Positions 1 to 14,338 of a stretch of DNA of 64,000 nucleotides are shown in pieces. How positions within the stretch are numbered: position 1 is the first letter of the stretch; the number at the start of each line of letters is the position of its first letter. The notes beneath the pieces were generated by a model. That model worked only from the letters and a program-made list of their open reading frames with translations. It was not told the origin of the DNA and did not search any database. Origin of the DNA: Phycisphaerales bacterium (GTDB lineage Bacteria > Planctomycetota > Phycisphaerae > Phycisphaerales > SM1A02); assembly GCA_014238205.1 (NCBI GenBank), contig JABABM010000011.1, positions 1 through 64,000 on the forward strand, written 5' to 3'. Both the position numbers and the translations under genes were made by a program.

Positions 1-1432
1 CGAGACTGTGGTCGTCAGCTCGCGAGAACTGCGTGGCGACATTGGCATTCACTCGCCCCGCGTTATCCGTGATGGAAACACTCACCACCTGCATCGTTCC
101 CTCGGTACCACTACCAGGCACATGAAACCAGAATGAGTCGGTGAAGCCATCGCCATCGGTGTCCGTCAGTACACGGCCCACGTGCCACCTGGCTGTCCCC
201 TTTCGGAATTCATCCCCGGGTCGCTCCTGGAGTTCGCCTCCACCCTCCCCTGTCAACGCATCATCACCATCCAGGTTGGACAGGTCGTAGAAGTTCTGGG
301 GGACGAAACTCGTGTTTCCCAGTGCAGCCATCTGCTGGGCATAGGCATTACCCTCGTAGTCGAACCACCTGATCCAGCTGGCCCAGAACTCCTCGGCGCC
401 ACCCGGCGGGAACATCGATGTCCCGGAACGCAGGTTGCGCAGGAGCGAACCAGACTGGAAATAGGACATCGGAGCGTAGGGAAGCCACTGCTCCACGGGC
501 ACGTGATGGTCACGGAGCAAGCCACCGAAATAGTTGTAGCCATCCGGGGCGATTGTTCCATAGACCGGCAAGCCTGTTATCTCGCTGTCTTCCAATGCCC
601 TGTGCTCACGAGACCAGACACCGGTCACATCAGCGATGTCACGGCAGATACGCCAGTCGTTGCCAGGGCGGGCGAGATTCGACAAGTGGCCGTAATGGGA
701 GAAGGTGTCGAGGTTGGCTCCCCGGCGAGAGAAGTTGTTTACGTTGTTGTCCGTCGAAACGTCATTGAGATAGGTCGTGGAGGCCCTGTAGGGTTCAAGG
801 TCGCGAAGCCAGCGGGTGTCGCTTGTGCCCGGTTGCCCTGGAGGATTGACGATGCCGGGGATTCCCTCCGGCTGCGTGCCATCGTTGTTCGTCAGGTCGG
901 CCTCGTTGAAACCATGCCAGAAACCATGTCCGCCACCACCCACGTCGGGCCAGTTGGTTCGAGGAGAAACCTCCCATGGCGCGTAGTTCCAGGAGAAGTT
1001 CCGATCAACCTCGTAGCGACGAGGCAGACGACCCATGTCCTCCATCCAGTGGGTGTTGATCAGTGGCAGCCGGCGATCCTCGAGGAACCGGTTCGAGTAC
1101 CCGTTGGCAACCCCCCCTCCACCTGACCAGAGCAGGGACTGGAGATTGGCCTGGGCCCCCCCGGAACCACCGGTGTTCGTGTCGATTTCCCGAACGAAGA
1201 GGGCTTCGCTGATTTCCCTGGCGATGTCCGCGGCGATGAGTTCAGCCGCCGCATCGGTGTTGGCTGTCTGTCGCTGGGCTACGACTGTTTTTCGAATCCC
1301 GTGGGAACTGTTTATATAGGCAGCGGCAATGATGACCAGAAGGACCAGGACACCTGCAACCAGGATCAGGGCGCTCCCCCTTCGGGAAGACCTGGACACA
1401 GATCGTGCATGCTGATTGAACGGCCTGGACAT
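1..1432 (-). CDS. Large pilin-like protein, GspK/PilX type (partial, runs off left edge)
   Basis: An uninterrupted minus-strand frame of 477 codons is open to the window edge. The N-terminus is basic, then carries RRGSALILVAGVLVLLVI (about residues 17-34): a prepilin-like G/S junction followed by a long hydrophobic helix, but without the +5 glutamate of ordinary pilins, as in GspK and PilX minor pilins. The rest is a large ectodomain rich in Asn, Gly and Trp. Around residues 424-434 it has DTDGDGFTDSF, an EF-hand or thrombospondin-3-like calcium loop. The start is ATG 1432, one base overlapping the upstream stop (TGATG), with GGAGG six bases before it; ATG 1435 is an alternative. It is the last visible gene of the pilin operon. 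The product probably sits in the inner membrane as a minor tip pseudopilin; that role is inferred from the N-terminus and position. Confidence 0.75.
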   Translation of the reverse strand, partial: MSRPFNQHARSVSRSSRRGSALILVAGVLVLLVIIAAAYINSSHGIRKTVVAQRQTANTDAAAELIAADIAREISEALFVREIDTNTGGSGGAQANLQSLLWSGGGGVANGYSNRFLEDRRLPLINTHWMEDMGRLPRRYEVDRNFSWNYAPWEVSPRTNWPDVGGGGHGFWHGFNEADLTNNDGTQPEGIPGIVNPPGQPGTSDTRWLRDLEPYRASTTYLNDVSTDNNVNNFSRRGANLDTFSHYGHLSNLARPGNDWRICRDIADVTGVWSREHRALEDSEITGLPVYGTIAPDGYNYFGGLLRDHHVPVEQWLPYAPMSYFQSGSLLRNLRSGTSMFPPGGAEEFWASWIRWFDYEGNAYAQQMAALGNTSFVPQNFYDLSNLDGDDALTGEGGGELQERPGDEFRKGTARWHVGRVLTDTDGDGFTDSFWFHVPGSGTEGTMQVVSVSITDNAGRVNANVATQFSRADDHSL

Positions 1433-3357
1433 CATCCACCTCCCCGATGGCTGCCTAGAGCCTGCACGGGAAGAGGTACGACGAACTGGTAGACATGCCC
1501 CTGCTCAAGAATACCCCTGGGATCATGAATTGTCATCGTGATACGCAGCGCCGTAGGCCAGGGGGCGAAACTCGAGTCGGGCTTGTATCTGGAACTTCTC
1601 GGGTTGACCTGCTCCACGATCGGCAGGTCCGGATTTTCCTGGTTGAACCCGAAAGTTGCCCAGTATTCCTCGTAGGGAGTTCCCCCTCCAAAGACGGGCG
1701 GCTCACGATCGACGGCATAGGCATCAACTGCAAAGGGAGCGAATGTGAAGTCCAGGTGGTTCCAGAAGAACTGCCCGTACGAATCGATGTGGTCAAGGGG
1801 CTCGATCGCCGGGAAATTTGCAGCGAACTCCTCGTAGGACATGACTCCACGCTCGATGTCGCGCATCCCGAACCAACGCTGTCCATGCCACGCCTGGGTC
1901 ACCCATGCAGGATCACCTCCCTGGGCCTGCTGAAGGAGCGGGTCACCTGACTCGTAATGGATCCCCGGCCAGAAGTCGGTCTCCCAGGATGAGCGACTTG
2001 GAACAGTTGCCTCGCCTGCACCCTCGATCCATGTCCACTCGACGATGAACGACGAACAGGCTGAACCGAGCATGTTGTACGCAAGTATCTGGTCGGGCTT
2101 TTCATTGCTTGGAGGCGTCCGCTCGACCCGCGGCCAGGTTACGACATCCTTCATGAAAAAACGCTGGTCGAGGTACGTATTGTTTGGGAGGGAGGGGTCG
2201 CCGAACATGCTCACCGGTTCATTGATGTCACGGAGTTCCATGTCCAGGATCCCATCCTCATCCGGGTCGGCATCCTGCTGCGAATAGGCGTCATAGGGAT
2301 GTGCACATCGCCTCAGGGAGTTGCCTGTGGGGTCGGCGTAGTCACGGCTTACGCGGAGCAGTTCCCGCACCTCGTCAAGCGGACAGGCCGCGAGATCCAC
2401 TCGGCCATAGGCCAGGAGCGGCGGATCGATGTTCGCATCCCCGATGCTGTTGCTGCCATCGAGCCGGGCATCATGGGGGAAGATCGACATGGCCGAGGGG
2501 ACATTCTGCAGGTACTGCCGTTTGGATTGATCTCCCGGAAAATCCTTGTCATCATCGGCGAGCAGCACCTGTTGCCGGGCAAGGATCCACTGGCGTGCAT
2601 CCGGCTGCGTTGCATTCACGTACTGGGGATGGGTATTTGAAGAGGGCGTCTGCTGGCTGAAGATGCTGCCAACGCCTGACGAGTAATCGGTATCAATGGT
2701 CTGGAGCCACTGGCTCTCATCGAGCGCCGGATTGTCGTATCTCCATGGAGTCAGTTCGCGAGGAGAAAGCCTTCCGTCGCCGTTCGTGTCATAGGGGTCG
2801 TGCCCCAGGCCGACGGGAGCGCCTGCCCCAGGCGGAATGAAGGGGCCAAGTTCCGGCAACTGGATTCCGTGCCCGTAGTAGATCATTGAATGCAATGCCT
2901 GGGCATTGGGATAGGCAGGAAGATTGCCGCCACTTGCAAAATCGTTCCAACCCTGCGCAGAGTCGGCCCCCTCCCTGAAGAAGGCGAGCTGATCGCAACG
3001 GATCGTCGCATCAAACGCAAGCGTAGGATTCAACAGTGGCGGCTTTGGCCCGATCTGTCCGCTGTCTTCCCAGGTCTGGATATTGATGCTGTTGGGCACG
3101 CCCACCCCATGTATCACGAGAAACCCGTTGTGAGTCATGGTGGCGATATCGCTTCGGATCCGCTTCTCAATGGCAGCGGCCTCCTGCATGATGTCGATCG
3201 TCGCCTCCCCTGCCGCCGTCACATCAGTCGTGATCTTGAAGATCCGTCCAGTCACGAGCACGATTGCAAGAAGCACACCGACAGCAACAAGCACCTCGGT
3301 CAAGGTGAACCCATGACGAGCCGAATGCGTTCGGAATGGAGAGGCTCGCTTCAACAT
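1432..3357 (-). CDS. Large type IV pilin-like protein (GspJ position) with EF-hand loop
   Basis: A 641-residue protein with a class III signal: cleavage expected after Gly16 in RHGFTLTEVLVAVGVL, with Glu at +5 and a hydrophobic helix to about residue 38. GspJ proteins are usually near 200 residues, so the ectodomain is about three times normal. Residues 190-201 (DTNGDGRLSPRE) match every key position of a canonical EF-hand loop. Residues 364-374 (DPDEDGILDME) form a second Asp-rich calcium-type loop. The start at ATG 3357 is chosen because GAGGAG lies five bases upstream and the codon overlaps the preceding stop (TGATG); an upstream in-frame start would extend 14 residues into the previous gene. 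It is probably a minor pseudopilin. GspJ is a positional guess. Confidence 0.82.
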   Translation of the reverse strand: MLKRASPFRTHSARHGFTLTEVLVAVGVLLAIVLVTGRIFKITTDVTAAGEATIDIMQEAAAIEKRIRSDIATMTHNGFLVIHGVGVPNSINIQTWEDSGQIGPKPPLLNPTLAFDATIRCDQLAFFREGADSAQGWNDFASGGNLPAYPNAQALHSMIYYGHGIQLPELGPFIPPGAGAPVGLGHDPYDTNGDGRLSPRELTPWRYDNPALDESQWLQTIDTDYSSGVGSIFSQQTPSSNTHPQYVNATQPDARQWILARQQVLLADDDKDFPGDQSKRQYLQNVPSAMSIFPHDARLDGSNSIGDANIDPPLLAYGRVDLAACPLDEVRELLRVSRDYADPTGNSLRRCAHPYDAYSQQDADPDEDGILDMELRDINEPVSMFGDPSLPNNTYLDQRFFMKDVVTWPRVERTPPSNEKPDQILAYNMLGSACSSFIVEWTWIEGAGEATVPSRSSWETDFWPGIHYESGDPLLQQAQGGDPAWVTQAWHGQRWFGMRDIERGVMSYEEFAANFPAIEPLDHIDSYGQFFWNHLDFTFAPFAVDAYAVDREPPVFGGGTPYEEYWATFGFNQENPDLPIVEQVNPRSSRYKPDSSFAPWPTALRITMTIHDPRGILEQGHVYQFVVPLPVQALGSHRGGG

Positions 3358-4610
3358 CAGAACTCCTCGACCAGGATGTAGACAGGCGTCACGGACCATG
3401 GAGTGCCCTGCTGGTCCGCAACTGCACCCGGGAGATACCAGAGGCGGGAAACAGCAGGCCCGCCAACCACGTTGTCAGCCCCCTGGTTCAGATCGCGTGT
3501 CACCATGCCGGCGTGATACGCAAAGGAAGAATCAAATCGCGCAGACGAGGGGAGAATCAGGCTTCCTGATGAAAGCACCCTGTTGGCGCCACTGATCCCA
3601 TAGTTTCCGTTGGACAACTCCGGGATGTGCAGTGAATCTTCCGGCAATGGAGGTACGGGGCTGGACAGCTCCACATGCGTCCTTGGATCGTTCACATAGG
3701 TCCGACCGACGCTGACGGTGTGGATGATTCCGTTCTGGTCCACGATCCACTGGCCTGGACTCTGCCAGCAGTCGTTGAGGTTCATCGGGTCGAAGTCGTC
3801 CCCCGCGTCTGCATTGGTCAGCAGCCACTGTGAACGGTCAAGCGTGGCACCTGCCCCCTGTCCGATACGCCAGGGCTCATAGGCATTGGAGCTGTTTTCC
3901 AGGTCAAGCATCCATGGCATCTGGAGCAAACCGTCATCTGAAGGAGAACTCTGCCAGGTCTTGCCGACCTCTCCGACGGCATTCATGCGGTAGACGAAGA
4001 TGGCGACCTTCATCTTGCCACCAGTACGACGGAACATGCAGTCCCAGTAGTACCTTGGAGCATTGCCGGAGCCGTCATTCCGAGGATACTGACGCTCCTC
4101 CTGTTCGATGACGACCAGAGGCGGAGCGGGTGGATTCGTCAACTGGTGCTGGTAGTAGGGAATGCCGCCATAGGTTGTCAGGGCATTGAGTACCCACGCG
4201 TCACCGGAGTCCTTCTCGCCGACCGTTGTAATACTGCTGAAGTCGGAGTGGTCATCCATGGCATCGAAGATGTCGATCGAGCCCAGCCCTGGACCACTCC
4301 CCCCACTGGCAGTCACGACCGAAGGACGCAACCATGGAAAGTCACCGGATCGGATATCCCAGGGAGAAACCGAGTTCGGGGTCTCGATGTATCCAAATGC
4401 ATCTGTAGGGATGCGTGAACGGAGCAGGGACATCGCATTACGGGCAACGAGTGGGCCGACCTGACCATCCATCGCTCCACGTTGCTGGGCTATGCCCGCT
4501 GGAAACAGCGACGCAATGCTGATGATCCCGATGCCGAGAATGAAGATGGCCATCAGGAGCTCAATCAGCGAGAAGCCTGCAGGCCTGGATGTCGAGCGGT
4601 TTCTGTTCAT
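3357..4610 (-). CDS. Type IV pilin-like protein (GspI/PilV-like)
   Basis: A 417-residue protein with a clear prepilin N-terminus: PAGFSLIELLMAIFILGIGI, cleavage after Gly12, Glu at +5 (residue 17), then a hydrophobic helix. The segment LGIGIISIASLFPAGIAQQ resembles PilV/GspI pilins. The ectodomain of about 380 residues is far longer than the roughly 100 usual for GspI. The start overlaps the upstream stop by four bases (ATGA), and the stop overlaps the next start by one base, so translation is probably coupled. The likely role is as a minor pseudopilin of the assembly machine encoded upstream. The substrate or surface structure is not evident from the sequence. Confidence 0.83.
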   Translation of the reverse strand: MNRNRSTSRPAGFSLIELLMAIFILGIGIISIASLFPAGIAQQRGAMDGQVGPLVARNAMSLLRSRIPTDAFGYIETPNSVSPWDIRSGDFPWLRPSVVTASGGSGPGLGSIDIFDAMDDHSDFSSITTVGEKDSGDAWVLNALTTYGGIPYYQHQLTNPPAPPLVVIEQEERQYPRNDGSGNAPRYYWDCMFRRTGGKMKVAIFVYRMNAVGEVGKTWQSSPSDDGLLQMPWMLDLENSSNAYEPWRIGQGAGATLDRSQWLLTNADAGDDFDPMNLNDCWQSPGQWIVDQNGIIHTVSVGRTYVNDPRTHVELSSPVPPLPEDSLHIPELSNGNYGISGANRVLSSGSLILPSSARFDSSFAYHAGMVTRDLNQGADNVVGGPAVSRLWYLPGAVADQQGTPWSVTPVYILVEEF

Positions 4611-5626
4611 TTGATCACCGTCCCCGTGTACCGGTTGAAACTGAAGACAATGCCGAACTCCTCCGCAAACTCGTCGAGATCGTCACGTCGTTTCAAGGAA
4701 TCAGACCAGTCATGCTGCGGATCATCCTTGGGGTAGATATCCCGTGCCTCGTTGTAGTCGTAGATGGCGAACCTGGGCGTAATGAGCAGGTACGGCTCCT
4801 CGGACGGATACGAGTGGGAATAGTTCAAGAGAACCACACCCCACGGATTGCCATTCGTATCAAGGAGGCCAAGATCGCACTCGTAGTCGACAAGTGGCTC
4901 GGGAATGCCCTCGAGCATCGGGCCCGACTCCTGCGTGTTGCATGGCGAGAGACAGTAGTCATTGGGCTGCTGCGACCCTGGATTGAGTCCGCATCGCATT
5001 CCACCATCATTGTTGAAGTCCACGAAGGCCAGCTGTGACCCCGTTTCATCAAACGCCGTCCGGACAGCACCCGTTTCATCGAAGATGATTCCGAACACCA
5101 CACCCGGGGCCTCCGGATTACTCTCGCCCTGCATGGCCGCCAGATTGGACAGGCTCAGCCACGTGTCATTGTGGAGAGGCCCGTCATCTCGGGTGTTGAG
5201 ACTGTAGACAGGCGATGCGACGGAAATCCCTTCAGGGAGAAATTGCGGCTTGATGCCCTCGACCGGAACGAACTTCAGTCCAGCCATCGGCTCGTCGAAT
5301 CCCCACGTCCACTGGGATGTGTGGGGATTGACATGCATCTCTCCTGATTCGACGGCGATGACCAGTTCAACCTGCTGACTTTGGGCTCCAGCCATGACAG
5401 GTCGGATCGCTACGAGCACGTAGCGACGCTTCTGGATGGCCATGGCCCTGGCATTGTCAAGGACCGTGCCAACGGCATTGGACGCCATGGAGATCCTCGC
5501 ATCAGCAGCGATGCTCCTGTATGCCGACAAGGTCAGTGCCGCGACAATACTGATGATCACGATCACTGCGAGCAACTCGACGAGCGTGAATGCGACGCGA
5601 GACATGGTTGATCGGCGATTCACCAT
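4607..5626 (-). CDS. Type IV pilin-like protein (GspH/FimT-like), unusual Ala at cleavage site
   Basis: A 339-residue protein beginning MVNRRSTMSRVAFTLVELLA. The helix VIVIISIVAALTLSAYRSIA and the following basic segment DNARAMAIQKRRYVLVAI are typical of GspH/FimT pseudopilins. The residue before the mature Phe is Ala12 rather than the nearly invariant Gly, which may slow or alter prepilin peptidase processing. Glu at +5 is kept. The start ATG 5626 has GAGGTGG four bases upstream and overlaps the previous gene by seven bases; Met8 (5605) is an alternative. The ectodomain contains two cysteines near residues 219 and 228, which could form a disulfide in the periplasm. Confidence 0.8.
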   Translation of the reverse strand: MVNRRSTMSRVAFTLVELLAVIVIISIVAALTLSAYRSIAADARISMASNAVGTVLDNARAMAIQKRRYVLVAIRPVMAGAQSQQVELVIAVESGEMHVNPHTSQWTWGFDEPMAGLKFVPVEGIKPQFLPEGISVASPVYSLNTRDDGPLHNDTWLSLSNLAAMQGESNPEAPGVVFGIIFDETGAVRTAFDETGSQLAFVDFNNDGGMRCGLNPGSQQPNDYCLSPCNTQESGPMLEGIPEPLVDYECDLGLLDTNGNPWGVVLLNYSHSYPSEEPYLLITPRFAIYDYNEARDIYPKDDPQHDWSDSLKRRDDLDEFAEEFGIVFSFNRYTGTVIK

Positions 5627-6501
5627 GAAACCACCTCATAGGAATAGATGTTGTCCTGGGCCTGCAGGAACTCCTCCTGGCCCGCGGCGGCATTGAAGGT
5701 ATCGCTGAGAGACTGGTCGTATTCAATGTTTCCAAACTTGCCGTCCGGACCTGCGGAGACAAAGTAGGCGTGCTGCCGAAGGGCAGGCCCGAGCATCTGT
5801 TCCTCTTTCGTCCGAACGGAACCATCAGCATCCTTTCTTGGATAACCAAAGGTATCGGCGCCCTCCCTTCCATGTCCCGGAAGCACCACAAGCACGGGAT
5901 TGCCCCACGCATCGATGGGCATGAAGGCGTGAAACTCTTCATCGCCGCCGGAGACTGGAACATTCACCTCGACATGCTGCAGCATGTCGGGCGAGATGGC
6001 CGCAAGAATGGTTCGACTGGCTGGACGCTCATTCAACATCAACATGAACCAGGCTCCGATCCCCTCATAGACGGCATGCCCTCCCCCGGTACACCCCTCG
6101 ACCTGGCACCACTGCGAACAGACCAGTTGTGATTCACTGGGCAGTTCGCTGGTGTTGAAATCAAGTACCTGATCGAGGCCTCCACCGCACCCGTCACACC
6201 CATTGCCACCAGCAAGAACGGCCCCGAGGTTCAACTCGTAACGAGATCCCCTGAAAGCCCCCTGGTCTGGATCAGGCTGTCCGTTGATGCCGTAGGTCGG
6301 CTCCCTTCCCTCCAGGAGTGCGTACTCCTGCGTCGCAGCGTCAAGCAGGGTCAGTAGATCTTCCGTACGTCGGATATCCGAGGAACCCAGGATTGCGGAA
6401 CCGACGCTCAAGGAAAGCCCCGCAAGGATCGAGATGATGAGAATGGCCACCATCAACTCGACCAGGGTCCAGCCACCACGATGTTGCAGGCGGACATTCA
6501 T
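5620..6501 (-). CDS. Type IV pilin-like protein (GspG-related), Cys-rich ectodomain
   Basis: A 293-residue protein starting MNVRLQHRGGWTLVELMVAI. The expected cleavage is after Gly10 with Trp instead of Phe at +1; Glu at +5 (residue 15) is present. A helix follows, then DLLTLLDAATQEYALLEGRE, like the alpha-spine region of GspG. The ectodomain has two cysteine clusters (GGNGCDGCGG and VCSQWCQVEGC), suggesting disulfide bonding, and a late DAWGNPVLVV segment reminiscent of the GspG DPWGNPY signature. ATG 6501 is chosen because GGAGGTGGG stands a few bases upstream and the codon overlaps the previous stop by four bases. A longer frame exists upstream but would cover the previous gene. Confidence 0.82.
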   Translation of the reverse strand: MNVRLQHRGGWTLVELMVAILIISILAGLSLSVGSAILGSSDIRRTEDLLTLLDAATQEYALLEGREPTYGINGQPDPDQGAFRGSRYELNLGAVLAGGNGCDGCGGGLDQVLDFNTSELPSESQLVCSQWCQVEGCTGGGHAVYEGIGAWFMLMLNERPASRTILAAISPDMLQHVEVNVPVSGGDEEFHAFMPIDAWGNPVLVVLPGHGREGADTFGYPRKDADGSVRTKEEQMLGPALRQHAYFVSAGPDGKFGNIEYDQSLSDTFNAAAGQEEFLQAQDNIYSYEVVSW

Positions 6502-7748
6502 GAGCCCACCTCCACGATGTTGTCTGTATTGACCTCTTCGGTAGGTGGCACCGACCATTCCGTGAACGGGGGAAGCCCGCCCCAGTTGTAGTGCCATCCG
6601 TCATTGAAGTTCGTGCCGTCGTTCCCACCGATACCGAGAAAATCGTTTCGCTGCCAGTTGTTCGACTGCCTGTCTGGCCCAGGAGAGAAGAAGGCGAATT
6701 CGCCGCTCTGGAGTTCGTAGGACGTGGATGAATCACCAAGCGTACCCCCGCCATCAAGCACGCTGTTGAAATCTCCGTACTGGCCCCCATCCTGAGGAAC
6801 AAGGAAATCCGTCATCGTGCCCGGATCGAACTCCCATGGCCTGAGAACGATGAACTGGGAGAGGCTTGGGGTGTAGGGAGCATTGGATGCCGGGTAGGAG
6901 CGGGACAATGCGCCGGTGGGATAGTTCAATCGGTAGTAGCGAATCGGCGACCCCCACGCATCGCAGATGACCTTCGGCCCCTGTGGGTCGTAGCCCGCAT
7001 CTCCCGGGAAGTAGACGGTCGGCTGGGAGGACACGGGATCGATTGCTCCCGTCCAACTACCCGGCACTGTTTCAGTCGCGTTTTCCCATCCGAGCGTTCC
7101 CACAACACCTCGTTCGGGGAGTTGAAGGTATGGGCCCAGCACCTGGCCCTGGCTTTCAGCCTTCCCCACAGAGAATCGTTCCAGGCGACCGGCAAGAGAA
7201 CCTCGCTTGGAGACGGTCGATGCAATGGAAGAGGTCCATATGCCGTCAAAGCCTGGATTCCTGATTCCAAATCGCACGGACTCATCCGGGTAGTCATTGG
7301 CTGGGTCCGGATCATTCCCACTCGCATCCCGCCAGCCATTGGGCGCATACGCCTGGGCAAATGAGCTGTCCTGCGAGAATCCGTACCCATCTTCCCCGTG
7401 GTGACCGTAACCGAGCAGGTATTCAGCCGGAGAGGTAATCGAATACCACCCCTGCATGCGGTGAAAGATATTGGCGTCATCAAGCTCAGGGGGGTCCATG
7501 ATCGAACGATCCTCGTCGAGCACTGGAGGAAGGTAGCCCACGTCTTCCCGGAACTGCACCACGCCCTGGGACAGGGATGCCATCGTGGCGCTCGTCGTCA
7601 CAACGCGAGCCGACTCGCGGGCACCCCCGACAGCCACGACCAGGACACTCATGAGAACCACGATGATTCCCATTGCCACGAGCAGCTCGGTCAAGGTGAA
7701 GCCATGCCTTGCATCGAGTGAGTCGTGATTGAAATGCCCTGCTGCCAT
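6498..7748 (-). CDS. Type IV pilin-like protein (GspG-related), first of the pilin series
   Basis: A 416-residue protein with prepilin motif DARHGFTLTELLVAMGIIVV: cleavage after Gly16, Phe at +1, Glu at +5. After the helix comes SATMASLSQGVVQFREDVGYLPP, like the spine of major pseudopilins (GspG) that goes on to a Gly-Tyr-Pro-Pro turn. Near the end, CDAWGSPIRYYRLNYP matches the GspG-type DPWGNPY signature. The protein is nearly three times the length of typical GspG. ATG 7748 has AGGAG six bases upstream. It lies 25 bases after the gspF gene and overlaps the next pilin by four bases. I infer it is either the main shaft subunit or one of two GspG-like subunits. Confidence 0.83.
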   Translation of the reverse strand: MAAGHFNHDSLDARHGFTLTELLVAMGIIVVLMSVLVVAVGGARESARVVTTSATMASLSQGVVQFREDVGYLPPVLDEDRSIMDPPELDDANIFHRMQGWYSITSPAEYLLGYGHHGEDGYGFSQDSSFAQAYAPNGWRDASGNDPDPANDYPDESVRFGIRNPGFDGIWTSSIASTVSKRGSLAGRLERFSVGKAESQGQVLGPYLQLPERGVVGTLGWENATETVPGSWTGAIDPVSSQPTVYFPGDAGYDPQGPKVICDAWGSPIRYYRLNYPTGALSRSYPASNAPYTPSLSQFIVLRPWEFDPGTMTDFLVPQDGGQYGDFNSVLDGGGTLGDSSTSYELQSGEFAFFSPGPDRQSNNWQRNDFLGIGGNDGTNFNDGWHYNWGGLPPFTEWSVPPTEEVNTDNIVEVGS

Positions 7749-7773: not shown

Positions 7774-9090
7774 CTAGTTGGGTTGCGAAACGGACTCGAT
7801 CATCGAGACCAGGGGCAGGAAGAGTGCAAGCACGATGGTCCCGACGACGCCACCCAGGACCACCACGAGGAGTGGCTCAAGGAGGCTCAGGAGCGCCTGC
7901 ACCGCGACATCAACCTCTTCGTCGTAGTTGTCGGCAATCTTGATGAGCATGATGTCCAGATCGCCTGTCTCTTCACCAACGTCGATCATGTTCACGACGA
8001 GCGAATCACAGACCTTCGATTCACGCAGGGGCTCTGCGAAACTCTCGCCCTCGCGGATGGAGTCATGGACACGCGTCAAGGCTCGCTCGAAGACCCAGTT
8101 GCCGGATGTCTCGCGAGTAATGTTGATCGCCTCGAGAATCGGAACACCGGCCGAGATCAGCGTGCCAAGTGTCCGGCTGAAACGAGCTACGGCCGTCTTC
8201 TCGATGAGACTCCCGAGCACCGGAACCTTCAGCAGGATCCAGTCGATGGACGCCCTGCCGAAGTTGGTCTTCCGGATGAGTTTCAACAGCGCAAAGAGGA
8301 GGAATGGTGAACAGATGACAATGACCCATCCAGGAACGGCCTGGTCAGGCATGGTGCCTGCAACCCAGGCACTGGCATCGATCAGCCAGAGTGTCAAACC
8401 AGGCAACTCGACCTCGAAGTCGTTGAAGATGTCCTGAAACTTCGGGATGACGAAGTACATGATGCCGGTGACAATGACCACCGCGATGATGATCACGAGG
8501 ACCGGGTAGATCATCGCGCCCTTGATCTTTGCACGAAGACGCTGGGCCTTCTCCATGAAGTTCGCCAGGCGCTGCAGGATGATGTCGATGACACCACCGA
8601 TTTCACCGGCGTTGACCATCTTGGAATAGAGGCGGTCAAACGCCTTGGGGTGCTTGGCCATGGCATCCGACAGTGTCGAACCTGCCTCGACGTCCTCGAC
8701 GATGTCACCAAGAATCGACTTGAGTTTGCCTGGCTTCTGCTGGGTCTCGAGGATCTGGAGTGAACGCAGCAGCGGCAGACCGGCGTCCTGGAGAGTCGAC
8801 AACTGGCGGGTGAACTGCGTGATTCGCTTGAGCTTGACACGGCCGAAGCTCAGCGAAAGGTTGATATCACCCTTCTTCTTCTTCGCCTTGCCTTTGCCAC
8901 CCCGCGGCTTTCGCCCTTTCCGCTTGCTTCCCTTGCCTCCATCGTCCTTGACCTTCTGTTCTCGAACCGACGTTGGAAAGAAGCCCTGACCGCGGATCTG
9001 CTGGATCGCGTCATCACTCGTCGATGCGTCAACGGAGCCCTTCTGGGGCTTCCCGGATGCATCAAGCGCTTCGTACTGGTAAGTCGGCAT
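7774..9090 (-). CDS. gspF: Type II secretion / type IV pilus inner-membrane platform protein
   Basis: A 438-residue GspF/PilC family protein. It has the family N-terminus (MPTYQYEALDASGKPQKGSV), two T2SSF cytoplasmic domains (about residues 100-225 and 300-425), and three membrane segments: around 205-230 (IYPVLVIIIAVVIVTGIMYF), around 258-280, and at the C-terminus (LLVVVLGGVVGTIVLALFLP). The conserved MVNAGEIGG and ADNYDEEV motifs are visible. An unusual Lys/Gly-rich insert follows residue 48 (KGSKRKGRKPRGGKGKAKKK). The protein anchors the assembly ATPase to the pilin-growing site. ATG 9090 is preceded by AGGAAC. It sits between the ATPase gene and the pilin genes, as expected for a shared operon. 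Confidence 0.95.
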   Translation of the reverse strand: MPTYQYEALDASGKPQKGSVDASTSDDAIQQIRGQGFFPTSVREQKVKDDGGKGSKRKGRKPRGGKGKAKKKKGDINLSLSFGRVKLKRITQFTRQLSTLQDAGLPLLRSLQILETQQKPGKLKSILGDIVEDVEAGSTLSDAMAKHPKAFDRLYSKMVNAGEIGGVIDIILQRLANFMEKAQRLRAKIKGAMIYPVLVIIIAVVIVTGIMYFVIPKFQDIFNDFEVELPGLTLWLIDASAWVAGTMPDQAVPGWVIVICSPFLLFALLKLIRKTNFGRASIDWILLKVPVLGSLIEKTAVARFSRTLGTLISAGVPILEAINITRETSGNWVFERALTRVHDSIREGESFAEPLRESKVCDSLVVNMIDVGEETGDLDIMLIKIADNYDEEVDVAVQALLSLLEPLLVVVLGGVVGTIVLALFLPLVSMIESVSQPN

Positions 9091-9122: not shown

Positions 9123-10925
9123 TCATTCCTCTTCACTGATGGTTTCGCGAAGAACCTCGTCGATCGTGGTTCTTCCGTCATAGATGCTCAGGAGTCCTGA
9201 TTCCCGCAACGTACGCATCCCCCGTTTTCTTGATTCCTGCTTCAGGTGCGCCGTCGACGCCTGCTTCATGACAAGCTCTCGCATGGTGTCGTCCATCTGC
9301 ATGCGTTCGAATATCGCAAGTCGACCCTTGTAGCCGCTGCTGTTGCAACTGTTGCAACCTCGACCCCTGAAGAACGTTCGACCGGAAACATCTGCAGGAC
9401 GAAGTTCAAGCTCCATGAGCTCGGACTCGGAAGGCGTGTATTCCTCCTTGCACTTGCTGCAGATCCGCCTGACCAGCCGCTGCGCGACGATTGACTCGAT
9501 CGTTGCAGTCAGCAGGAAACTTTCCACGCCCAGGTCGACAAGCCTGATGATCGTCGATGGCGCATCATTCGTATGCAGTGTCGAGAAGACAAGGTGACCT
9601 GTAAGCGAAGCCTGCACGGCGATCTGCGCCGTTTCAAGGTCACGGATTTCACCCACGAGGATGACATCCGGATCCTGGCGAAGGAACGAACGCAGGAGCT
9701 TGGCAAACGTCAACTCCTGGTCGACGTTCACCTGGCACTGGATCAGCCCGTCGATGTCGTATTCGACCGGATCCTCTGCCGTCAGGATCTTTGTTTCGGG
9801 TTCATTGAGCTCACTCAACGCGGCGTAGAGCGTGGTCGTCTTTCCTGAGCCGGTCGGACCGGTAATGAGAACAATGCCGTTGGGCCTCTTGATGAGCTCC
9901 CGCATGCCCACGAGTTCGTCATCCCTGAAACCAACCTTGTCGAGGCTCAACTGGACATTGCCACGATCAAGAACACGCATCACGACCGACTCGCCGAACA
10001 TGGTCGGCAAAACGGAGACACGAAGATCGATCGGCGACTGGTTGACGGTCAACTCAATGCGGCCGTCCTGGGGAAGTCGTCGCTCAGCGATATCCAGATC
10101 CGCCATGACCTTGATTCGTGAAACAATCGGCAGTGCCAGGTGCGGTGGAGGCGGAACCATTTCGTACAGGACACCGTCAATGCGATATCGCATCTTGAAC
10201 TCACTCTCGAAGGGTTCGAAATGGATATCACTGGCCTTGTCCTTGATCGCCTGCAGGAGCACCAGGTTCAGAAGCCTGACAACCTTGTTGTCTTCCGTAG
10301 CTGTTACAAGTTCCTCCAGATCAACGGAGTCTCCCCTGCCTGCCAGCGCAGAGAGTGCAGCGCTGTCACCAAGTTCGGACATCACGTCAACCATCGACGT
10401 GGTTGCCTTCCCGTAGAAGGCGTCGAGGACTGCGTCGACATCGGATTCAGGAGAAACAACTGCCGTTACATTGAACCCCATCAGGAGGCGGAGGTCATCG
10501 ACTGCTCGAAAGTTGTCGGGGGACTTCATTGCAATGGAAAGCGTCTTGGATCGCTCGTTGTAGTCAATAGGAACGATCTGGTACGTATTCGCTGTTTCAG
10601 CGGGGAGCTGTTCGACCAGGGACTCGTCCAGATCATCCAGATCCAGGCGTACGAAATTGAGACCAGCCTGACCGGCCAGAGCTTCCAGAACATCAATTTC
10701 CTCAACCAAACCCAACTCAATCAGGATCTTCCCCAACTGGTCCCGTTCGCCCTTCTCACGCCTGACTCGCTGGACTTTCAATCCCTCGTGAACCTGGTCA
10801 CGGGTCACCTTGCCGAGCTTGGTCAGGACTCGACCAAATCGACGCCCCTTGAGCTTGGCGACTGGGTCATCGGATGCGCGGTCACGGCTTCGACGACTTG
10901 CTCGTTGTTCTGTCGACTTTTCCAT
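9123..10925 (-). CDS. Pilus/secretion assembly ATPase (PilB/GspE), copy A
   Basis: A 600-residue GspE/PilB ATPase. It has an N-terminal MshEN-type domain (about residues 35-185), an N2 domain (ASDIHFEPFESEFKMRYRID), Walker A GPTGSGKTTTLYA, an Asp box (ILTAEDPVEYDIDGLIQCQV), Walker B VILVGEIRD and a His box (STLHTNDAPS). A zinc-binding tetracysteine follows (CSKC near 490 and CNSC about 40 residues later). ATP hydrolysis powers pilin extraction from the membrane. The start is placed at ATG 10925; the frame can extend three codons to a TTG. It lies 32 bases upstream of gspF, so the two are probably co-transcribed. Confidence 0.94.
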   Translation of the reverse strand: MEKSTEQRASRRSRDRASDDPVAKLKGRRFGRVLTKLGKVTRDQVHEGLKVQRVRREKGERDQLGKILIELGLVEEIDVLEALAGQAGLNFVRLDLDDLDESLVEQLPAETANTYQIVPIDYNERSKTLSIAMKSPDNFRAVDDLRLLMGFNVTAVVSPESDVDAVLDAFYGKATTSMVDVMSELGDSAALSALAGRGDSVDLEELVTATEDNKVVRLLNLVLLQAIKDKASDIHFEPFESEFKMRYRIDGVLYEMVPPPPHLALPIVSRIKVMADLDIAERRLPQDGRIELTVNQSPIDLRVSVLPTMFGESVVMRVLDRGNVQLSLDKVGFRDDELVGMRELIKRPNGIVLITGPTGSGKTTTLYAALSELNEPETKILTAEDPVEYDIDGLIQCQVNVDQELTFAKLLRSFLRQDPDVILVGEIRDLETAQIAVQASLTGHLVFSTLHTNDAPSTIIRLVDLGVESFLLTATIESIVAQRLVRRICSKCKEEYTPSESELMELELRPADVSGRTFFRGRGCNSCNSSGYKGRLAIFERMQMDDTMRELVMKQASTAHLKQESRKRGMRTLRESGLLSIYDGRTTIDEVLRETISEEE

Positions 10926-11212
10926 TGATTTCAAGCTCCAAGAGCAAGGCTGACCAGCAGCCCCTGTCCAAGGAAGTACGCGTGAAAGGGACTACTAGTA
11001 TCTTTCATCATCTTGTACTCTATTTCGGCGCACAACAACCTTGCGCTTTCCCAGGAGAAAATACCCGCGCAGGGTGGCGATGGAATGGCCAAAGCCCTCG
11101 AAGGCCCAGAAGGGAACGTAATAATGCAGGGGCCCATACTGAACGAAGATAGCCCTGAGGCCGAGGTATGAAATGGCCTATTTGGATGGATTCAAAGACC
11201 AGGAAGAGGTAA

Positions 11213-12352
11213 TTATTCTTCTTCGACAACTGGCTTTTTGGGCTTGGGTTCGGATGTGTCAAGCTCGGTTCGACCCACCATGCGGCCTGCTCTATGGACC
11301 CTATTGGTCAATTCTCCTGGATCCCGGCTCTTATCAATCATCTCCTCAGCACTGATCATCCCCTTCTCAAACAAGGACCAGAGGCTGTCGTCAAGCAGTT
11401 GCATGCCGAATTTTCGCCCTGTCTGAATAGAGGAATCGATCCTGAAGGTCTTATTTTCCCGGATGAGGTTTGCGATGGCAGGGGTCACGACAAGAAACTC
11501 GAAGGAAGCCACCCGTCCGACCTTGTCGACCCGGGCAAGCAGGACTTGCGAAAGAACCGCTATCAGGGAGGTCGACAACTGAACACGAACCTGGGCTTGC
11601 TGGTTGGTCGGGAATGCATCAATCACACGGGTAATGGTTCCCGAAGCACCTGTGGTATGCAGGGTGGCAAACACGAGGTGACCCGTTTCAGCTGCCCGAA
11701 CCGCCGCCTCGATCGTTTCAAGGTCACGCATTTCACCTACCAGAATCACATCCGGATCGGCTCGAAGTGCACGCCGAAGTGCTTCGGCGAAGCTCATGAC
11801 ATCCACTCCAACCTCTCGCTGGTTGATGAGGGATTTCTTGTGATAGTGGTAGTACTCGATCGGATCTTCAACAGTGATGATATGCCGATCAAGGTTGATA
11901 TTGATGTGATTGATCATCGATGCAAGAGTCGTCGTCTTGCCCGAACCCGTCGGCCCTGTCACGATGAACAGCCCACGGGGGCGACGAATCAACTCCCCGA
12001 TGATCGGCGGCAGACCGATCTGATCGAAGTCAAGAAGATCATTTGGAATCAACCGGAGGGAAAGGGCGATATCACCACGCTGCCTGAAGATCGCAACCCT
12101 GAAACGAGCCTCGGTGCCATAGGCAAACCCAAAGTCGGCACTTCCTTCTTCCTGCAGTTCCTGCTGGGCACGCTCAGGTGTAATGGACTTCATGAGGGCA
12201 ACGCAGTCATCCGCGTCAAGCACCTTGGTGTCCAGATTCCTCAAGCCACCATGCAATCGCAGGGTCGGCTTTCGACCCACCGTCAGGTGCAGGTCTGATG
12301 CGCCCTGGCGTATGACCGTATCAAGCAATCGGTCGATCTGGATGGTGGACAT
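11213..12352 (-). CDS. pilT: Twitching motility / pilus retraction ATPase
   Basis: A 379-residue PilT-type ATPase. The N-terminus ASDLHLTVGRKPTLRLHG is the PilT N-domain signature. It has Walker A GPTGSGKTTTLASM, Asp box ITVEDPIEYYH, Walker B VILVGEMRD, a His box (FATLHTTGASGTITRVID), and the late retraction-ATPase region KVGRVASFEFLVVTPAIANLIRE. There is no zinc tetracysteine, as expected for PilT. A Lys/Pro/Glu tail ends the protein. Its presence points to a retractable type IV pilus-like fibre rather than a pure secretion pseudopilus. ATG 12352 has a GGAG eight bases upstream and a TACAAT -10-like element further up. Confidence 0.95.
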   Translation of the reverse strand: MSTIQIDRLLDTVIRQGASDLHLTVGRKPTLRLHGGLRNLDTKVLDADDCVALMKSITPERAQQELQEEGSADFGFAYGTEARFRVAIFRQRGDIALSLRLIPNDLLDFDQIGLPPIIGELIRRPRGLFIVTGPTGSGKTTTLASMINHININLDRHIITVEDPIEYYHYHKKSLINQREVGVDVMSFAEALRRALRADPDVILVGEMRDLETIEAAVRAAETGHLVFATLHTTGASGTITRVIDAFPTNQQAQVRVQLSTSLIAVLSQVLLARVDKVGRVASFEFLVVTPAIANLIRENKTFRIDSSIQTGRKFGMQLLDDSLWSLFEKGMISAEEMIDKSRDPGELTNRVHRAGRMVGRTELDTSEPKPKKPVVEEE

Positions 12353-12436: not shown

Positions 12437-14173
12437 CTACTCCATGTCTACATTTTCCGACATCAACTGCTCTGACTGGGCAAATCTGGCAATTTCCTCG
12501 GCAGTCGTATCACCCCGGAGGATCTTGATCTTTCCATCGTGCAGAAGGGAACGCATTCCTGCGCGAACTGCAGCAGCTCGAATCTGTCCAATGGATGCCC
12601 TGCTGAATGCAAGCTCCCTGCACTCGGTATTCATCTGCATGAGTTCAAAGATCGCCTTCCTTCCCCTGTACCCCAACTGGTTGCATTGGGAGCACCCCAC
12701 GGCCCTTTGCACTTTCCCTTCGGCCTCCGCAAGCGTAAGCCCGACCGCCGAGAGCATCTTCGGGTCTGGATCAGGGTCGATTTCCCTGCACGCGGGGCAC
12801 AAGAGGCGGATCAATCGCTGTGCCATGATCGCCTGGATCGAACTGGCAGCCAGGTATGGCTTGACTCCCATGTCGATGAGCCGGGTAATGGCGGAAGGAG
12901 CATCATTCGTATGCAATGTCGAGAACACCAGGTGACCTGTCAAAGCTGCCTGGATGGCGATATCCGCCACCTCCCGGTCACGAATTTCACCGATCAGCAC
13001 GATATTCGGCGCCTGGCGAAGCATCGACCTGAGAATCGAGGAGAAACTCAGCCCGATGGACTCTCGTACCTGGCACTGGTTGATGCCCGTAAAGGAATAC
13101 TCCACTGGATCCTCTGCAGTGATGATCTTCCGATCCGGACGATTCAACATGTCCAGCGCCGAATACAAGGTTGTTGTCTTGCCTGAGCCGGTGGGACCGG
13201 TGACAAGGAAGATGCCGTTGGGTCTTCGAATGATCTTGTTGAACGTCTCAAGGTGATCTGGTTCGAACCCGAGATTAGGAAGGCCGATTCGTACTGAATC
13301 TGGCCTGAGAATACGAAGGACGACCGACTCGCCGTGGTACGCGGGGCAGATGCTCACACGGAAGTCGATCGAATCTTCGTCGACCTGCATCTTGATACGC
13401 CCGTCCTGGGGCACTCTCTTCTCCGCGATGTTGACTCCGGCCATGAGTTTCAAACGGGCGAGAAGCGCTGCCTGCATCCGCTTGGGCAGCTGGTCACGAA
13501 GATGGCAGACACCGTCAATCCGATACCGAAGCAGGACACGGTCCTCCATGGGCTCAACGTGAATATCCGAAGCCCGCCCACGAACTGCTTCCTGGATGAT
13601 CTTGTTTGCAAGTTTCACGACAGGCGCAGACTCTCCTACTGCAATGTCAACTGACGTGTCGACAGAGGTGTCAACCGTGACATCGATCGATTCAGTTACG
13701 AGAGAGTCGTTGGACAGCATGGAGCCGCCACCAAGATGCTCGTCGATGTAGGCCTTGATCGCCCCGCGAGGAGACAGCACCGTTTCAAGTTCGACATTCA
13801 ACCTGAAACGAAGCAGGTCAAAGAGTTCAAGATCCATGGGATCATGAATGATCAGTCGAAGCCTGCCACTCTCCTTGCCACGCGGGAGGACCAGGTGCTT
13901 TCGAATGATCTCGGACGGCGCCCCGCCCAAATCGATTCCCTCAAGATCCGATTCATTCTTGAGTGGGTTGAAATCCATCTCAAACTGCTCAGCAAGCGCC
14001 TGTGCGATTTCAACTTCACTGCAGTATCCCGCCTCGATCAACGCCTCGCCCAATCGCTTCCCCGAGCCAGAGGCGAGCTTGATGCCCTTCTGGAGTTGCT
14101 CCTCGGCCACAGCCTCGTTTCTCTTGAGGATGACACCCAGTTTCTCTCGTGGTTTTCTCGACCGTCGTGCCAT
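12437..14173 (-). CDS. Pilus/secretion assembly ATPase (PilB/GspE), copy B
   Basis: A 578-residue GspE/PilB ATPase and the second copy in this locus. It has the MshEN-type N-domain (LGVILKRNEAVAEEQLQKGI onward), N2 motif RASDIHVEPMEDRVLLRYRID, Walker A GPTGSGKTTTLYS, Asp box TAEDPVEYSFTGINQCQV, Walker B IVLIGEIRDRE, a His box (STLHTNDAPSAITRL) and the zinc cysteines CPAC and CSQC. Between the N-domains lies an acidic Val/Asp/Thr stretch (SIDVTVDTSVDTSVDIAV). The start MARRSRKPREKL at 14173 is preferred; an upstream start (14215) adds 14 residues. Two extension ATPases could power different fibres or conditions. Confidence 0.93.
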   Translation of the reverse strand: MARRSRKPREKLGVILKRNEAVAEEQLQKGIKLASGSGKRLGEALIEAGYCSEVEIAQALAEQFEMDFNPLKNESDLEGIDLGGAPSEIIRKHLVLPRGKESGRLRLIIHDPMDLELFDLLRFRLNVELETVLSPRGAIKAYIDEHLGGGSMLSNDSLVTESIDVTVDTSVDTSVDIAVGESAPVVKLANKIIQEAVRGRASDIHVEPMEDRVLLRYRIDGVCHLRDQLPKRMQAALLARLKLMAGVNIAEKRVPQDGRIKMQVDEDSIDFRVSICPAYHGESVVLRILRPDSVRIGLPNLGFEPDHLETFNKIIRRPNGIFLVTGPTGSGKTTTLYSALDMLNRPDRKIITAEDPVEYSFTGINQCQVRESIGLSFSSILRSMLRQAPNIVLIGEIRDREVADIAIQAALTGHLVFSTLHTNDAPSAITRLIDMGVKPYLAASSIQAIMAQRLIRLLCPACREIDPDPDPKMLSAVGLTLAEAEGKVQRAVGCSQCNQLGYRGRKAIFELMQMNTECRELAFSRASIGQIRAAAVRAGMRSLLHDGKIKILRGDTTAEEIARFAQSEQLMSENVDME

Positions 14174-14338
14174 GGTGCTCTGCTTGTTCCAATCAGGGCT
14201 TCTTCGCCGTATCAACTCAGTACTGCTGCCAAGAGCGTAGTATTGCCACTGTACCCATACCCCTGCAAGACGCGTCCCTACATCGGCCCCCCGGGGCCCG
14301 AATCTCCAGACAGCCCAGGACAGGAACCTTCGATTCAG

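Follow-up and report, generated by a model that had tools for sequence, protein, structure and literature searches.

What machine is built by the six consecutive pilin-like genes that open a contig of a Phycisphaerales bacterium, and what does the last and largest of their products do in it? An ordinary tip pseudopilin has about 300 residues and is thought of as a cap. The preliminary description of this locus presented six giant pilin-like proteins, two of them with calcium loops, and proposed that they form a thick surface fibre or a secretion tip complex. The window analysed here is the whole stretch of 64,000 nucleotides, which begins at base 1 of contig C2 in an assembly of 2.44 Mb. On balance, the evidence slightly favours a retractable type IVa-like pilus with enlarged tip subunits, in which the sixth product (hereafter K) would be an internally expanded GspK that presents inserted modules and replaces PilX together with PilY1. 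The class, the gene order and calcium binding belong to what was already known; K is new in its size, internal expansion, module slot and order-wide conservation.

The six ORFs lie in tandem 3' of the PilC gene (Table 1), and successive overlaps of 4, 7, 4, 1 and 4 bases confirm the chain of overlapping genes reported initially. The operon combines PilB, PilT and PilC with the pilins and thus fits a type IVa pilus; owing to the presence of PilT and PilC, it is placed with the retractable members of this group. Within the K operon no secretin and no PilMNO were found, which counts against the pilus reading. A cluster of PilM, PilN, PilO and a secretin is located on contig C78 of the same genome, and this set could serve the K operon. 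The PilT gene is flanked by two different PilB-type ATPases, one of which has an MshE-like c-di-GMP motif above the NCBI cut-off. The genome as a whole (2.4 Mb; contigs C2, C78, C9 and C7) contains four GspF/PilC-type platform proteins, three secretins and more than 20 pilin-like genes.

Table 1. Features of the pilus operon, in window coordinates
Feature	Position	Strand	Basis
PilB/GspE-type assembly ATPase with MshEN domain	12437..14215	-	T2SSE 2.6e-129 and MshEN; NF053729 c-di-GMP motif 45.6 bits, cut-off 38
PilT retraction ATPase	11213..12352	-	TIGR01420 pilT_fam 443.8 bits, cut-off 319.1
Second PilB/GspE-type ATPase	9123..10934	-	T2SSE 4.7e-140, MshEN
PilC/GspF platform protein	7774..9090	-	T2SSF 1.1e-65, two stretches
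Gene 1, GspG-like pilin, 416 aa	6498..7748	-	N_methyl above cut-off; TIGR01710 GspG N-terminal match 1e-5
Gene 2, GspG/GspH-like pilin, 293 aa	5620..6501	-	N_methyl above cut-off; TIGR01710 1.2e-5, TIGR01708 1.4e-4
Gene 3, GspH / Verru_Chthon D-like minor pilin, 339 aa	4607..5626	-	TIGR02596 1.9e-5, TIGR01708 6e-5
Gene 4, GspI/PilV-like minor pilin, 417 aa	3357..4610	-	TIGR02523 PilV 5.6e-7, below cut-off
Gene 5, predicted GspJ/PilW-type minor pilin, 641 aa	1432..3357	-	AlphaFold model: three GspJ chains alone at Z>=8
Gene 5 EF-hand-like loop DTNGDGRLSPRE, residues 190-201, not conserved	2755..2790	-	Sequence, family alignment, model
Gene 5 second Asp loop DPDEDGILDME, residue 364	2236..2268	-	Kept in nearest genus only
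Gene 6 (K), first 478 residues of giant GspK-type tip pilin	2..1435	-	ORF 1435-<2 runs off contig; rest is C21:1-5100, locus L075
Gene 6 loop DTDGDGFTDSF (DTDGDGFTDSFW at residue 425)	131..163	-	Core invariant in 36/36 aligned relatives

The order G, G/H, H, I/V, J/W, K after PilC recurs in the loci read, both in the bacterium's own family and in other families of Phycisphaerales, although in this comparison a simple ORF caller left some middle genes unresolved in some loci. The conservation of gene order that the preliminary description had suggested looking for in other Phycisphaerae is therefore found in this order.

The claim that all six ectodomains are oversized survives for genes 5 and 6 only. 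In the genome search, genes 1, 2, 4 and 5 passed Pfam N_methyl and gene 3 passed TIGR02532, and genes 1-5 carry the prepilin motif GF(T/S)LxE or a near variant. The other pilin-like ORFs of the same genome encode 309-459 aa, and ectodomains of 300-450 residues are usual there; six giants were thus rejected, four of the proteins having an ordinary size for this genome (for gene 2, with the start taken as the one lying 4 bases inside gene 1). Genes 1-6 can be placed in the classes G, G/H, H, I/PilV, J and K, but the GspJ and GspK structures compared have no counterpart of the large inserted domains, so the objection that these are known GspG-K classes with the same large domains holds by half.

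Gene 6 had been taken for a 478-residue protein, but the contig ends within it. Its frame extends to window base 2 without a stop, which led to rejection of the contig end as the natural end of the gene. The K protein of locus L059, searched against the bacterium's own genome, located the remainder at C21:25-5097 as a 1,699-codon reading frame, open at the contig edge and closed by a stop. Both pieces align to L059, L060 and L061, and taken as one gene they give a full protein of ~2,270 residues. Directly behind K, C21 carries the adenylosuccinate synthetase gene purA (L075 5945-7279), identified by its sequence (MTLQRHTAVTGLQWGDEGKGKIVDL), and purA also adjoins the K locus in L065 and, by its sequence, in L069, a synteny that supports the join of the C2 and C21 pieces. 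A real rearrangement splitting the gene is unlikely, because the halves lie at contig ends, the gene is single-copy and ~100 residues are missing between them.

The class of K can be read from several lines that agree. Its start, RRGSALILVAGVLV, includes a prepilin-like RRG/SALILVAGV segment in which Gly-1 is kept and Glu5 is missing; in alignment A1 the segment reads RRG/NALVLV with the glycine invariant, and no Glu stands at position 5. The loss of Glu5 is a mark of GspK and PilX. Matches of the C-terminal region are weak, both in Pfam (T2SSK in 17 of 28 members, best 0.0011; HHH_3 in 8 of 28) and among NCBI profiles (GspK NF037980 in 13 of 28, best 0.0038; Verru_Chthon_A in 25 of 28), and none of these 28 members exceeded the curated cut-offs of T2SSK (Pfam) or GspK NF037980 (NCBI). 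Whole K proteins found no match in Pfam, the full-length K profile found none among PDB sequences, and the C-terminal profile gave only chance-level matches to the latter.

The fold was approached with an AlphaFold model of residues 212-1411 of the L145 protein, which is of modest confidence (mean pLDDT 62.7, pTM 0.69). Onto this model 6utu_C, 5vtm_X, 3ci0_K and 9a1f_T align over 208-218 residues with Z 6.5-7.0, values that, being below 8, are weak if taken alone; the first Foldseek match is 3ci0_K as well, at E 0.67. These GspK alignments are spread from model residue 6-12 to 1198-1200, that is, over the whole 1,200-residue fragment. The aligned residues consequently frame the insert, which means that the expansion of K sits inside a split GspK fold. 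K is assigned to GspK because profiles, fold, gene position and the missing Glu5 agree, and the model suggests a relative of this class by fold rather than a curated GspK.

GspK, known also as XcpX and EpsK (PF03934, NF037980; 3ci0, 5vtm, 6utu), is the tip pseudopilin of type II secretion, and K resembles it in the helical N terminus without Glu5, the split pilin fold with an inserted alpha domain, the position as last pilin gene and membership of a calcium-binding class. The solved GspK chains have 259-295 residues, whereas K proteins have 1,184-3,225 and add Ig-like and repeat modules, and the K operon has PilT. The GspK alpha domain of K also has a helix-hairpin-helix-like NINTA motif that weakly matches ComEA, from which it might be argued that a large K binds DNA in a competence pilus; ordinary GspK contains the same NINTA motif, and DNA uptake is judged highly improbable.

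A scan of named genomes gave 70 loci, nearly all from Phycisphaerales, Phycisphaerae or other Planctomycetota MAGs. Among the loci read, K is giant in at least five families of Phycisphaerales, from 1,184 residues in genome G121 (L071) to 3,225 in L167. By the C-terminal profile, in a survey whose shortest frames are partial or broken, K open frames have ~1,500-2,700 codons where the bacterium's own family was sampled and ~650-1,950 across the order; the rest of the class gives 440-1,330 and other classes fewer than 960. K open frames thus shrink with taxonomic distance. In the literature searched, no papers on giant pilins or on an oversized K were found.

Part of the insert may have a recognizable fold. 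Residues 541-722 of the K model resemble lamin Ig domains (Z 7.0-7.8), and LTD is the most frequent, if weak, Pfam match in this region (5 of 17, best 0.045). In addition, L135, L142 and L167 carry at one common site a Cys-rich tandem-repeat module of ~700-1,400 residues, with the pattern GACCLxxGxCxxV...CxxLGGxYxG, bounded by QPFI.E.FIAH and VAVVQLANPFDR. The same site measures 32-109 residues in the other measurable K proteins, and the window genome's own K is without the module. Its repeats have ~40 residues per unit, with up to 196 Cys in one protein, and occupy codons ~890-2250 in the K of L167; no Pfam family recognised those of L167, and a sub-threshold CBM96 match lies within the module of L142. 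Module exchange at one slot would be the behaviour expected of a display scaffold.

Gene 5, the other enlarged subunit, is predicted to have a GspJ fold with long loops. Its AlphaFold model (mean pLDDT 79.6, pTM 0.83) aligns with 3cfi_E (Z 9.5), 9a1f_S (9.3) and 2ret_B (9.0) over residues 17-636; this likeness came from VIA-align comparison alone, after Foldseek had given no match below E 0.5. The fold is alike, while GspJ, EpsJ and XcpW have ~160-200 residues against 641. In the gene 5 family, TIGR02599 matches 35 of 38 members and gspJ 16 of 38.

Gene 5 was also the site of what the preliminary description considered the key feature, an EF-hand inside a pseudopilin ectodomain. Asp loops do occur in genes 5 and 6 at the places reported, and the two in gene 5 compare with 0.12 expected in shuffles, but the EF-hand loop scores 14.6 bits against a Pfam cut-off of 25.9 and is not conserved. 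No EF-like loop was found at position 190-201 in the 38 relatives aligned; the nearest genus has other sequence in its place, and the three nearest relatives are without it. In the model, strands 184-189 and 218-224 border the loop, pLDDT falls below 50 at 193-200, and no helix-loop-helix is seen around it, so that it is best described, on alignment and model, as a non-conserved, predicted disordered surface loop. The second loop survives, as DxDxDGxxD or a similar form, in the nearest genus alone.

The Asp-rich loop of K fared better. It was reported at about 424-434 of the edge protein, is seen at 425, and is the only conserved calcium-like loop of genes 5 and 6, with the form D[TSA]DGDGFTD[SA]. 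It is less unusual than first thought, as GspK pseudopilins bind two or three calcium ions, XcpX with a Kd of 26 uM (PMC6211770). The DxDGDGFTD loop probably holds calcium in a structural role, as is to be expected of K, since GspK already binds calcium. Across 40 K proteins (L122 to L191), 177 DxDxDG-type motifs were seen against 29 expected in shuffles, ~6-fold, and this enrichment holds apart from the invariant loop too. A fibre switched by calcium, in which the gene 5 EF-hand and Asp loops sense the ion and control assembly, could draw on this excess and on the canonical 12-residue EF sequence of the gene 5 loop. It appears very improbable: the closest relatives have no EF loop, the modelled loop is disordered without flanking helices, and the K loop is constant and its class is known for structural calcium sites, which makes structural calcium likelier.

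Three further known systems invite comparison. The Verru_Chthon cassette shares sequence with this locus: the C-terminal region of K is shared with Verru_Chthon A (TIGR02600, a 1,296-position model; 25 of 28, best 4.6e-7), gene 5 relatives match Verru_Chthon C (TIGR02599; best 1.3e-7) and gene 3 matches D (TIGR02596). Most of the length of K does not align with A, and all scores stay far under the curated cut-offs (K of L059 17.8 against 332.3 bits; gene 5 12.5 against 256.5; gene 3 24.8 against 70); no studies of this cassette were found in the literature searched. The modular pilins PilB and PilC of Streptococcus sanguinis, like K, have a functional module on a pilin displayed by the filament. 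Those pilins carry it as a graft behind the pilin module, whereas in K it interrupts the pilin fold and is much bigger; in a survey of modular pilins, the protein richest in modules had 860 residues (PMC8179133). With the PilX/PilY1 tip of type IVa pili, K shares a proposed role as tip adhesin on a minor-pilin complex. PilY1, by contrast, is not a pilin but a protein of its own, and relatives essentially lack it: it is above cut-off in 1 of 61 genomes in a search that included no positive control genome. We tentatively propose, at somewhat less than even confidence, that the order-wide, internally expanded GspK, exceeding 3,200 residues at its maximum, has itself turned into a giant scaffold for interchangeable display and stands in for PilY1, its modules being swapped at one set position, within a lamin-tail-like domain that the split pilin fold encloses.

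The rarity of PilY1 can also be read in another way, together with the GspK and GspJ folds of K and J and a gene order that follows gspG-H-I-J-K: the system would be a pseudopilus of the type II secretion kind, exporting protein without fibre extension, and a periplasmic K would use its large insert to recognise or plug cargo. The size of K lends weight to this, as passage through a secretin is doubtful; a folded K ectodomain of ~250 kDa may not pass, and K could stay periplasmic, which is the chief objection to the favoured pilus. PilT within the operon argues against it, as do a separate GspE/GspF/GspK cluster on contig C7 of the same genome with a normal 448-residue GspK and the PilM-N-O-secretin set on C78, which could serve the K operon. 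Secretion of this type is accordingly regarded as unlikely.

In the favoured retractable pilus, genes 1-6 would supply the pilin part (G, G/H, H, I/V, J/W, K), with assembly ATPases, PilT and PilC encoded in the same operon. Priming of the fibre would fall to J and K together with H and I, and K, bulky and without Glu5, would cap the filament tip. Its inserted modules, the lamin-tail-like Ig domain and in some species the Cys-rich repeats, may bind surfaces or polymers; retraction would be the work of PilT, and extension would be set by c-di-GMP acting on the MshEN ATPase. K alone would then do the job of PilX plus PilY1 as an in-built adhesin. Pilins with tip-displayed modules are known (PMC8179133), and an attached marine Phycisphaera has abundant type IV pilus proteins in its proteome (PMC7029141), an observation that fits adhesion by a pilus and does not identify K. 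Of the two structures envisaged in the preliminary description, a tip complex of enlarged pilins is therefore supported as probable, and a distinct thick surface fibre is not supported.

The finding gives a structural class to a giant planctomycete protein family that profile libraries leave unannotated. Moreover, a GspK expanded four- to tenfold within its own fold raises the question of how such a subunit is assembled and whether it passes a secretin, and the attachment of common aquatic bacteria to particles via K becomes testable.
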